Shown here piece after piece: positions 30,687 to 34,103 of a stretch of DNA of 34,103 bases (its first letter is position 1; each line of letters starts with the position of its first letter). The notes beneath the pieces were generated by a model. It did not search any database, was not told where the DNA came from, and saw only the letters and a program-made list of their open reading frames with translations. Position numbers and translations under genes: made by a program. The stretch is from Vulcanimicrobiia bacterium (GTDB taxonomy: Bacteria > Vulcanimicrobiota > Vulcanimicrobiia > Eremiobacterales > Eremiobacteraceae). Location: NCBI GenBank assembly GCA_025450855.1, contig JANWLL010000102.1, positions 1 through 34,103 of the forward strand. The letters are read 5' to 3'.

Positions 30687-31373
30687 ATGCCGCGCCTGAT
30701 CGCCCGCGAATTGATGGACGACGACACGACGAGCGGCGACGACGCCCTCTGGCGCGGGAGCTTGCACGACCTCGCGCGCGTCAATAGGCTGCTCGGCGGA
30801 CGGCGCTGCCTCCGCCTCGAGCTCGACCGCATCGAACCCCCTCCGCGCACCATCCTCGACGTCGCGACCGGCGGCGCGGACCTGCCTGCCTTCATGCTCG
30901 ATCACCTCCGCAGCCGCGGGATCGCGGCGACGTGCGTCGCGGTCGACCGTTCGCCGAAGGTGCTCGCCATCGCCGCCGGGCGCGTCTCAGGTCGAGATGA
31001 TATCCGCCTCCAGCAAGCGGACGCTACCTCGTTGCCCTTCGCCGATAAGAGTTTCGACCTCGCGACGATCGTGCTCGCGTTCCATCACTTCGACGGCGAT
31101 GCGGCCGTTGCGGTGCTCCGCGAGCTCGCGCGCGTCGCGAAGACCGTCATCGTCAACGATCTGCGGCGCAGCATGCTCGCGTATGCGTTCGCGAAGTACG
31201 CGTTCCCGCTGTTCACCCGCAACAAGTTCACGCTCGCGGACGGACCGATGTCGGTGCTGCGCGCGTATACTCCGCAAGAAGTATCGGCGCTCGCTCGAAA
31301 CGCGGGCTGGACTCGAGTCGCCGTCCGCAACTATCCCGGATATCGCATGGCGCTCGTCGGAGGAACGGCGTGA
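30687..31373 (+). CDS. class I SAM-dependent methyltransferase
   Basis: The 228-residue protein starts 4 bases after a GAGGA site. The N-terminus ELMDDDTTSGDDALWRGSLHDLARVNRLLGG matches a methyltransferase type often found in polyketide clusters (pattern MDDPxxD...ALRxLARINR), seen in parts here. The SAM-binding motifs are ILDVATGGADLP (motif I), VAVDRSPKVLAIA (acidic end of strand 2) and FDLATIVLAFHHF. It is first of four overlapping genes; its stop shares bases with the oxidoreductase GTG. It probably methylates the product of the cluster. Confidence 0.9.
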   Translation: MPRLIARELMDDDTTSGDDALWRGSLHDLARVNRLLGGRRCLRLELDRIEPPPRTILDVATGGADLPAFMLDHLRSRGIAATCVAVDRSPKVLAIAAGRVSGRDDIRLQQADATSLPFADKSFDLATIVLAFHHFDGDAAVAVLRELARVAKTVIVNDLRRSMLAYAFAKYAFPLFTRNKFTLADGPMSVLRAYTPQEVSALARNAGWTRVAVRNYPGYRMALVGGTA

Positions 31374-32515
31374 CGGACGTTCTTGTCGTCGGCGGAGGTC
31401 CCGCGGGTTCGTCGTCGGCCCTTCGGCTCGCGCGTGCCGGCTTCGAAGTCAGCGTTCTCGAGCGCGCACAGTTCCCGCGGACGAAAGTATGCGGCGAATA
31501 TGTGAGCCCGGGCGCCTGCAACGCACTCGCCGAACTCGGGCTGCTCGACGCTATCGCGGCAGAAGCATTTCCGTTGCGTACCATCGCGCTCGCCGGTTTC
31601 GGCACGCAACCCGTGCGCCTGCGCTTGCCCGATCGCGGTGCGCTCTCGATCCCGCGCAGCCGGTTCGATGAGATCCTGCTCGAAGCGGCGTGCGACGCCG
31701 GCGCGACGGCGATCGGCGGCGCGTTCCTCGACATCGAGAGATCGCGCGATCGTCTCGTCGTTTCGTATCGCGACCGCGACGGCGCGACCCGGAACATCGA
31801 GTGCCGCGTTCTCGTCGGGGCCGATGGCGCGTTTTCGACGGTCGCGCAGCGAGCGGGCATGGCGCGACGCCGCGGGCGCGGCGGCCGCTGGGCGATCGGC
31901 GGCCACCTCACCGGACAAAAGGACGAAGATGCGCTCGAGATGTTCGTCGGTCCGGGCGGCTACTACGCGCGAAACCCGCTCGGGAACGGAAAGGTGAACT
32001 CGATGCTCGTCATGCCGGACGCGCGGCGCGGCAGCGATGCCGACAGGACGGTCATCGAGTTGACGAAAGGCAAGTGCCGTTTCGAAGAGGACAAGCTCGA
32101 GCGCCGCGTCGCTGTCGGTCCGCTGCGCTATGCGGCCGACGTCGCCGCGCGCGGTCGCGTGCTGCTCGTCGGCGACGCGGCCGGGCTACTCGATCCTTTC
32201 GTCGGTCAGGGCATGGCGATCGCGCTCGAGACATCGTCGTCTGTCGTCACGGCGACGGACGCGCTCTTGCGCGGTTCGCGGTCTTCGGCGATAGCGCGCG
32301 ATTTCGCCGCAGCGCGCACGAGCGCGGTGCGGCCCCGGACCATGCTCGCTGCCGCGGTCGATGCGGTCATCAGAATCCGGCCGCTGCGCGATCGAGCCGA
32401 ACGAGCGATCCGCCGCGATCCCTCGCACGCCGAGTCGGTGCTCGCAGCCCTTGCCGGCGCCGTGCCGGCCCGGACGGCGCTCACTCCGCGGGCGCTCCTC
32501 GGTCTCATCGCATGA
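31370..32515 (+). CDS. FAD-dependent oxidoreductase (geranylgeranyl-reductase family)
   Basis: GTG 31370 overlaps the methyltransferase stop and gives 381 residues. The FAD-binding motif is VVGGGPAGSSSALRLARAG near the N-terminus. KVCGEYVSPGA (~42-52) matches the KVCGGxLS-type motif of geranylgeranyl reductase-like flavoproteins, and GDAAGLLDPFVGQGMAIALE is the second FAD site. It may reduce double bonds or hydroxylate an intermediate made by the ketosynthase. The exact reaction cannot be read from the sequence. Confidence 0.92.
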   Translation: MTDVLVVGGGPAGSSSALRLARAGFEVSVLERAQFPRTKVCGEYVSPGACNALAELGLLDAIAAEAFPLRTIALAGFGTQPVRLRLPDRGALSIPRSRFDEILLEAACDAGATAIGGAFLDIERSRDRLVVSYRDRDGATRNIECRVLVGADGAFSTVAQRAGMARRRGRGGRWAIGGHLTGQKDEDALEMFVGPGGYYARNPLGNGKVNSMLVMPDARRGSDADRTVIELTKGKCRFEEDKLERRVAVGPLRYAADVAARGRVLLVGDAAGLLDPFVGQGMAIALETSSSVVTATDALLRGSRSSAIARDFAAARTSAVRPRTMLAAAVDAVIRIRPLRDRAERAIRRDPSHAESVLAALAGAVPARTALTPRALLGLIA

Positions 32516-32964
32516 TGCATCTCGAACGCTCGGTCGAGGTCGCGGCTCCGGCGCGGAGGATCTACGATCTCGCACAGGACGTGGCGGCGTGGCCGGCGAT
32601 ACTTCCGCACTACCGTTGGGTGAAGGTGCTTCGCGAGAACGCGCGTGAACGCGAAGTCGAGATGGCGGCGCGGCGAGACTGGATCCCGGTGCGATGGACC
32701 GCGCTTCAGACGCTCGATCCGTCGACGCCGCGCATCGAGTTCAAGCACTTGTCGGGGTGGACGAAGGGGATGTCGGTCGCGTGGACCTTCGCGCCGTGCG
32801 CCGGCGGGACGCGCGTGACGATCGCCCACGATCTCGACGAGAACGTGCGGCCGATGTTGCGCGGCTGGTTCGGCCGCCGGGTCGTCGGCGATTTCTTCAT
32901 ACAGTCGATCGCGGGCCGGACGCTCGCACGAATGAAACAGCTCGCGGAGGAGCGCAATGGCTAG
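32512..32964 (+). CDS. SRPBCC (START-fold) polyketide cyclase/aromatase-like protein
   Basis: The 150-residue protein begins in the stop of the oxidoreductase gene; either of two adjacent ATGs (32512, 32515) may be used. The N-terminus LERSVEVAAPARRIYDLAQDVAAWPAILPHYRWV is the START-fold signature (V-x-APxxxVYxLxxDxxxWPxxLPH), quoted in family terms. Such proteins shape or dehydrate polyketide chains, or bind hydrophobic ligands. The terminal helix (FIQSIAGRTLARMKQLAE) is normal. It overlaps the ketosynthase gene by 8 bases. Confidence 0.87.
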   Translation: MMHLERSVEVAAPARRIYDLAQDVAAWPAILPHYRWVKVLRENAREREVEMAARRDWIPVRWTALQTLDPSTPRIEFKHLSGWTKGMSVAWTFAPCAGGTRVTIAHDLDENVRPMLRGWFGRRVVGDFFIQSIAGRTLARMKQLAEERNG

Positions 32965-34103
32965 TCGTGTCTTCATAACCGGCATCGGTGCGATCACGCC
33001 GATCGGATCGGGCCGCAGCGACTTGTGGCGGGGCACGCTCGACGGCCGCCGAGGCGTGAAGGCGATCGATCGCTTCGATGCTTCGGCGTTCCGCTCGCAA
33101 GTCGCGGGTCAGGTCGACGATTTCGATCCCTCGGCATTGCTGTCGCGCCGCGAGACGCAGCGGACCGACCGCTACAGCCAATTCGCGATCGCAGCGGCGC
33201 AGATGGCGTTCGACGACGCGAACTACACGCCGCAAGGCGACGACGGCGACTTCGGCGTCTGGATCGGCAGCGCGCTCGGCGGCGCAGCGTTCGGTGAAAG
33301 CGAGTTCGGCCGCTATTACGAGAAGGGGCCGAAGGCGATCAGCCCGATCCTCGCGCTCAGCGTCTTTCCGGCAGCGGCCTGCTGCAACGTCGCGATCCAC
33401 TTCGGACTGCACGGCCCGACGATTTCGAACTCCAATTCCTGCGCGGCCGGCGCGGTCGCGATCGGCGACGCGTTCCGTGCCGTGCGCAGCGGCTTGTGCC
33501 GCGCGGCCATTGCCGGCGGGGTCGAGGTGCCGCTGGCACCGCTCATCTTCGACGCATTCGACGTCATCCGCTCGATGTCGACGCGCAACGGCGATCCCGC
33601 GACCGCGAGCCGCCCGTTCGATGCGGCCCGCGACGGATTCGTGATGGCCGAAGCCGCGGGTCTTCTATTGCTCGAATGCGAGGAAGACGTCATCCGTCGC
33701 GGCGCGACGCCGTACGGCGAAATCGTCGGCTACGCGCTGACGAACGACGGCGTGAGCATGGTGGCGCCGCGCGAGGACGGCCGCGAGGCGGCGCGCGCGA
33801 TGACGCTTGCGCTGCGCGACGGCGGCGTCGATCCGTCGGAAGTCGATCATGTGAGCGCGCACGGATCGTCGACGCCGCTCAACGACGCGACGGAAAGCAA
33901 AGCGATCCGCGCCGCTCTCGGTGCGGCGGCAGACAATATCGTCGTGTCGGGGACGAAGGGGATGACCGGGCACGCTCTCGGCGCGACCGGCGCCGTCGAG
34001 ATCGCGATGTGCGTGCTCGGCATACGCGACCATCGCGTCGCGCCGACGATCAATCTCGAAACGCCGGGCGACGGCTGCGACCTCCGTTACTCGCCGGAGA
34101 CGC
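32957..34103 (+). CDS. beta-ketoacyl-ACP synthase, FabF/KS-alpha type (3' end beyond window)
   Basis: ATG 32957 follows GGAGG and the frame is open to the window end (382 residues). The sequence starts VFITGIGAITPIGSG, typical of FabF-class condensing enzymes. The catalytic triad is intact: C162 (NSNSCAAGA), H302 (SAHGSSTPLND) and H339 (KGMTGHALGATGAVE). It would extend an acyl chain on an acyl carrier protein by decarboxylative condensation. The neighbouring methyltransferase, oxidoreductase and cyclase point to specialised metabolism rather than housekeeping fatty acid synthesis. An acyl carrier protein and a second KS would be expected to the right of the edge. Confidence 0.93.
   Translation, partial: MASRVFITGIGAITPIGSGRSDLWRGTLDGRRGVKAIDRFDASAFRSQVAGQVDDFDPSALLSRRETQRTDRYSQFAIAAAQMAFDDANYTPQGDDGDFGVWIGSALGGAAFGESEFGRYYEKGPKAISPILALSVFPAAACCNVAIHFGLHGPTISNSNSCAAGAVAIGDAFRAVRSGLCRAAIAGGVEVPLAPLIFDAFDVIRSMSTRNGDPATASRPFDAARDGFVMAEAAGLLLLECEEDVIRRGATPYGEIVGYALTNDGVSMVAPREDGREAARAMTLALRDGGVDPSEVDHVSAHGSSTPLNDATESKAIRAALGAAADNIVVSGTKGMTGHALGATGAVEIAMCVLGIRDHRVAPTINLETPGDGCDLRYSPET

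Follow-up and report, generated by a model that had tools for sequence, protein, structure and literature searches.

A compact set of four genes at the end of contig JANWLL010000102.1, from a draft genome of a Vulcanimicrobiia bacterium (GCA_025450855.1, hereafter G000; 81% complete, 2.34 Mb), probably constitutes a complete operon for a phenolic lipid or a polyketide quinone. As judged from sequence, a lone FabF-like ketosynthase (KS) and a putative aromatase/cyclase of the SRPBCC type would replace the type III polyketide synthase (PKS), with neither a chain-length factor (CLF) nor a dedicated acyl carrier protein (ACP). The two other genes encode a methyltransferase (MT) and a flavin adenine dinucleotide (FAD)-dependent oxidoreductase. 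We infer the product, the type of ring and the role of the operon. The analysed window is the whole contig of 34,103 bases, and genes were called with a simple codon-usage script.

All four genes lie on the plus strand in the order MT-FAD-SRPBCC-KS, and neighbouring genes overlap by 4, 4 and 8 bases in turn. The coordinates thus bear out the gene set and overlaps given in a preliminary description of this DNA, which had taken the genes for the edge of a cluster continuing beyond the window. The KS gene is interrupted by the contig end, so that 382 of approximately 410 residues are present and the last 28 or so are cut off. A complete copy was found in a 97% complete genome of the same genus (G001, locus L034), where the four proteins are 93–96% identical to those of the source genome and the KS comprises 410 residues (93% identity to the window KS). 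In G001 the operon stops at the KS, and the set is thus not a cluster edge; on the 3' side follows an opposite-strand gene pair read as a sigma/anti-sigma factor. Upstream of the operon lie a 105-residue gene, a P5C dehydrogenase and a GntR-type regulator. These names, like the term ICMT-like used below, are readings of the sequence, not results of family searches.

Partner genes expected to the right in the preliminary description (ACP, second KS, ketoreductase and acyltransferase) were absent beside the operon in G001. No ACP-like gene was recognised beside the G001 operon when the translations were read, and no CLF adjoins the KS in that genome. A KS-family search returned two matches each in G000 and G001, namely the operon KS and one FabF-like protein, neither of which is a CLF. 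A type III PKS (PF02797) gave no match in either genome, and its location downstream of the KS was ruled out, as none is present there in G001. A scan for promoters and terminators around the G001 operon was uninformative, yielding no promoter-like site and one terminator-like site against 2.3 expected. Further downstream in G001 (L034:6309-11344), related secreted-looking proteins surround a pair of membrane proteins.

The KS belongs to a separate clade. In a tree of 48 KS-clade sequences, 43 FabF, two KS-alpha, two CLF and one other sequence, the operon KS clade was monophyletic (48/48, support 1.0), FabF stood apart (support 0.58), and the operon KS did not group with actinobacterial KS-alpha. 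Grouping with housekeeping FabF, named in the preliminary description, together with a lack of further biosynthetic genes downstream, as the outcome that would speak against a biosynthetic cluster, was therefore not what the phylogeny returned. In the Eremiobacterota genomes searched, the lowest clade member reached 368.8 bits and the next group 306.9 bits. The catalytic Cys, His, Lys and His are present in all 48 clade sequences, so that the KS, as described before, appears catalytically complete from its sequence. The unusual NSCAAG context is likewise real and not peculiar to a single gene: Ser precedes the catalytic Cys in 48/48 clade sequences, compared to Ala in the FabF variants inspected (40/43). 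In the GFGG-x-N loop, x is aliphatic in the clade variants inspected and mostly His or Thr in FabF.

Against the fabF equivalog model, the window KS scored 445.6 bits, below the cut-off of 493.75, while the other KS of G000 passed it with 614.3 bits. The window KS passed the broader PRK07314 subfamily model (440.3 vs. a cut-off of 387 bits), and the best PDB matches of the operon KS were FabF enzymes. A KS-clade gene without MT, FAD or SRPBCC neighbours was also observed in a Herpetosiphonaceae metagenome-assembled genome that carries a type III PKS (G066, L055:3483-4724), possibly reflecting another use of this KS.

The SRPBCC protein resembles the aromatase/cyclases of type II PKS in both sequence and modelled fold. 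Its AlphaFold model had a mean confidence (pLDDT) of 87.1, and the best fold match found with VIA-align was the aromatase/cyclase ZhuI (Z 20.9, root-mean-square deviation 2.0, 148 aligned residues, 24% identity). The next matches were TTHA0849, StfQ and BexL (Z 19.5 each), thebaine synthase (19.3), TcmN (18.9) and WhiE (18.3); rows within one Z unit are to be read as ties, and START-fold proteins with other functions also score high. In the sequence profile search, the top matches were BexL (8.9e-21), WhiE (1.6e-13) and TcmN (1.4e-9). His79 and His106 of the SRPBCC protein are invariant. In 47 of the 48 KS-clade loci, the SRPBCC gene immediately precedes the KS.

The MT-FAD-SRPBCC-KS order recurs in three phyla, represented by Eremiobacterota, Chloroflexi and Paenibacillus, and an arrangement kept over such distances is not due to chance. 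Named loci of Candidatus Eremiobacterota/Vulcanimicrobiota, the phylum in which its relatives place the source genome, have this operon too. In Eremiobacterota, the KS clade was detected in 12 of 14 genomes of group f1 and in 18 of 47 genomes of groups f2 and f3. The same gene order was observed in Thermomicrobiales (L058), in other Chloroflexi (complete in L061, where the SRPBCC gene was located by tblastn; partial in L054, L060 and L073) and in Paenibacillus (L059). Within the Paenibacillus genus group, the KS was present in 14 of 51 genomes at 83–100% identity, the remainder having only matches of about 45%, and all 10 KS loci read there contained the full set of four genes. Among the 48 KS-clade loci, which probably correspond to 47 genomes (L056 and L027 probably belong to one), FAD genes were found upstream of the KS in 43 and MT genes in 31, several of the 17 loci without MT having too little upstream sequence. 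Because the neighbour counts decrease from 47 to 43 and 31, SRPBCC-KS is regarded as the core and MT and FAD as tailoring. On plasmids, no close relative was found, the best identity being 44.6% among the matches listed.

The two tailoring genes connect the operon to type III PKS operons. Twelve Paenibacillus genomes were drawn from the 30 with a type III PKS above the cut-off, and in 12/12 the genome-wide best match of the operon MT profile adjoined the type III PKS, with 120–144 bits compared to 62.7 bits for the best match elsewhere in these genomes. The same was true for the FAD profile (12/12). The MTs of both operon kinds have PRK06202 as best model, below its cut-off. In planctomycetes, the FAD-profile match beside the type III PKS was the best in G128 and the second-best in G129. 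At the Paenibacillus type III PKS loci, an FAD gene lies nearby in 11/11 cases, and an MT was called in most. An exchange in place was rejected, as none of the 30 largest gene families was common to 10 Paenibacillus KS loci and 11 type III PKS loci. In Paenibacillus, an MMPL-family transporter gene (L202:4866-7019) was noted as a neighbour of the type III PKS operon, and the same gene family occurs next to it in L198 and L206.

KS and type III PKS are distributed in a nearly exclusive manner. Among the 47 Eremiobacterota genomes of f2 and f3, both were present in 3, only the KS in 15, only the type III PKS in 26 and neither in 3; the corresponding values for 51 Paenibacillus genomes were 0, 14, 30 and 7. 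Expressed differently, a type III PKS occurs in 3/18 f2/f3 genomes with the KS vs. 26/29 without it, and in 0/14 vs. 30/37 Paenibacillus genomes. Of the nine genomes behind the named loci, only G066 has a type III PKS. On trees of 49 Eremiobacterota and 47 of the 51 Paenibacillus genomes (G078, G102, G104 and G115 being absent), Fitch reconstruction required 3 changes for the KS and 5 for the type III PKS in Eremiobacterota, and 1 and 5, respectively, in Paenibacillus. We read these as about three coincident exchanges: in the large f2 clade, in G017/G058 and in the Paenibacillus clade. As a gauge of chance exclusivity, the naive Fisher p-values of 7e-7 and 9e-8 ignore kinship, and the tree-aware figures given below are preferred.

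Several observations weigh against reading the operon as one for an aromatic polyketide lipid. A Pagel-type test (custom script, midpoint rooting) yielded p values of 0.037 for Eremiobacterota and 0.13 for Paenibacillus, few events underlying the exclusivity. Three f2 genomes (G015, G043 and G059) contain both systems, and three Eremiobacterota genomes (G025, G033 and G057) contain neither. In Eremiobacterota, the type III PKS is paired with an ICMT-like methyltransferase at 13 of 20 loci, so the exchange there was not gene for gene, and the two such genomes tested, G032 and G026, contain no close relative of the operon MT (about 45 bits). No MT adjoins the operon in G004, G005, G007 and G011; in G022 and G039 only SRPBCC-KS is in place, with a strong MT match elsewhere in the genome; and L055, in a genome with a type III PKS, is the sole KS-clade locus without an SRPBCC neighbour. 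At the protein level, the MT reached 122.8 bits against PRK06202 (cut-off 243) and the window FAD enzyme 150.8 bits against TIGR02032 (cut-off 158.8). Furthermore, the putative position of TcmN R69, mapped onto the alignment of a relative, is variable here.

Some neighbouring genes recur beside the operon (Table 1). In 10 f2 loci (e.g., L050:15969-16211 and L044:4565-4819), and not in f1, a conserved gene for a 4Fe-4S ferredoxin of 80–84 residues lies directly 5' of the MT; the FAD enzyme could draw its electrons from this protein. The reading of this 80-residue gene as an ACP was ruled out by its cysteine motifs, which are those of a 4Fe-4S ferredoxin. In 4 of 10 Paenibacillus loci, the KS is followed by a fusion protein of the methylmalonyl-CoA-mutase type (about 1076 residues; B12-binding, MeaB and mutase domains), a possible source of branched starter or extender units. 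Each of the 10 Paenibacillus KS loci also has a GH18-family gene that lies 5' of the operon and points away from it (L187:2928-4859 and nine others).

Table 1. Genes of the four-gene operon in the window and a recurrent neighbour in Paenibacillus.
Feature	Position	Strand	Best models or further loci
MT, S-adenosylmethionine-dependent, UbiE-like	30687..31373	+	Pfam Methyltransf_25; best NCBIfam model PRK06202
FAD-dependent oxidoreductase, geranylgeranyl-reductase-like superfamily, GTG start	31370..32515	+	Pfam FAD_binding_3; TIGR02032
SRPBCC (START-like), predicted aromatase/cyclase	32512..32964	+	Pfam Polyketide_cyc
KS, FabF-like, separate clade, cut at contig end	32957..34103	+	Pfam ketoacyl-synt N + C
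Methylmalonyl-CoA-mutase-type fusion	L187:8760-11990		also L059, L188, L189

A possible course of the pathway can be outlined. The KS would be loaded with a fatty acyl group, probably taken from the acyl-ACP of the cell, and would extend it with malonyl units without reduction. The SRPBCC protein would fold the resulting poly-keto chain so that a single aromatic ring forms, and the product of this step would be an alkylresorcinol-like phenol; ring closure is assigned to this protein on the basis of its fold, its profile hits and the adjacency of its gene to that of the KS. The MT would then methylate a carbon or oxygen of the ring, as suggested by the methyltransferases of known alkylresorcinol operons, and the FAD enzyme may hydroxylate or oxidise the ring towards a quinone. 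KS and SRPBCC together would thus stand in for the type III PKS of hidABC, srsABC and pkqABC, with the tailoring plan in common. As the sole quinone of the cell, the product was ruled out, since MenG/UbiE exceeded the cut-off in 30 of 31 genomes of relatives; any quinone made by the operon would be additional.

Among other explanations, modification of fatty acids without formation of any ring was considered. The KS would elongate a special acyl chain by one additional round, double bonds would be reduced by the FAD enzyme, the MT would methylate a fatty acid, and the SRPBCC protein would serve only as a lipid carrier. Such a scheme would suit a FabF-like KS without CLF, and the best model of the FAD enzyme is indeed that of the geranylgeranyl reductase superfamily, whose enzymes reduce double bonds, with the f2 ferredoxin as a possible reductase donor. 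However, the SRPBCC protein is closest to aromatase/cyclases and almost always adjoins the KS, and the relatives of MT and FAD reside in type III PKS operons, and this explanation is regarded as unlikely.

A classical type II PKS with its CLF and ACP encoded elsewhere in the genome was judged quite improbable. Genes of type II PKS could be dispersed, and an aromatase/cyclase-like SRPBCC protein beside an iterative-type KS would be expected of them, but the KS-family matches in G000 and in the nearly complete G001 comprise nothing beyond the operon KS and the FabF-like one, and the KS lies outside actinobacterial KS-alpha in the tree. It is hardly credible that the KS is simply a divergent second FabF among unrelated neighbours, with the operon serving ordinary fatty acid synthesis. 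The FabF structures among its best PDB matches and the PRK07314 score fit that explanation, whereas the separate clade, marked by distinctive active-site and loop residues, the better FabF in the same genome and the gene order conserved across phyla do not.

The ring-forming operon favoured here is best compared with known systems. According to PMC8086630 and PMC10896814, alkylresorcinols are made by operons in which a methyltransferase gene is followed by that of an oxidoreductase and then by a type III PKS gene, both in hidABC (hierridin, cyanobacteria) and in the Planctomycetota. The present operon is similarly compact, with methyltransferase and then oxidoreductase before the ring-forming synthase; however, its ring-former is a FabF-like KS with SRPBCC. 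It would work like the hid/pkq operons but does not belong to them, lacking the type III PKS that defines these. According to PMC9927152, pkqABC-type operons make respiratory polyketide quinones, and in pkqABC and srsABC (Mycobacterium, Streptomyces) a methyltransferase and an oxidoreductase likewise act on a polyketide ring, which can lead to an alternative quinone for respiration. Those systems differ in being actinobacterial and based on type III PKS, and the likeness to them is one of operon plan.

What the operon has in common with actinobacterial type II PKS (ZhuI, TcmN, WhiE) is a free-standing KS together with an SRPBCC protein resembling aromatase/cyclases. It differs in its KS clade and in having no CLF, dedicated ACP or ketoreductase; lacking CLF and ACP, it does not qualify as a standard type II PKS. 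The preliminary description was right in recognising, outside actinobacteria, condensing and tailoring enzymes of the polyketide type, but the set differs from a type II PKS by the missing CLF; an alkylresorcinol or polyketide-quinone operon (MT, oxidoreductase, type III PKS) is the better comparison. Formation of a resorcinol by a ketosynthase and a cyclase without a type III PKS occurs in the DarA-DarB system of dialkylresorcinols and flexirubins. There, two chains are joined and DarB is a KAS III-type enzyme, whereas the KS studied here resembles FabF.

To be included in the type II PKS catalogue of PMC10132072, a cluster needed a KS-CLF pair, so that the present operon would lie outside its scope. 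In the open-licence PubMed Central literature searched, mostly at the level of search listings, no description of a KS/SRPBCC version of this operon was recognised, and as far as searched the KS and SRPBCC operon has not previously been in print.

In a wider and distinctly more tentative interpretation, which we consider possible but doubtful, the operon represents a further route to single-ring aromatic lipids, in which a lone FabF-like KS without CLF or dedicated ACP passes its chain to an aromatase/cyclase and the tailoring pair of type III PKS operons leads on to a polyketide quinone. The distribution of the KS over the species tree suggests that the route may be ancestral in this Eremiobacterota class, providing a second electron carrier or a membrane lipid beside menaquinone, and that KS with cyclase and type III PKS may have displaced each other more than once. 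If the proposed replacement is right, two ring-building machineries, the type III PKS and the FabF-like KS with aromatase/cyclase, would have been exchanged within one operon plan. Type II and type III polyketide chemistry would thereby be linked, and a minimal CLF-free aromatic PKS would become available for study. Searches in which either a KS-CLF pair or type III PKS is obligatory would overlook operons of this kind. Phenolic lipids or quinones would be predicted in Eremiobacterota and in cultivable Paenibacillus without a type III PKS.

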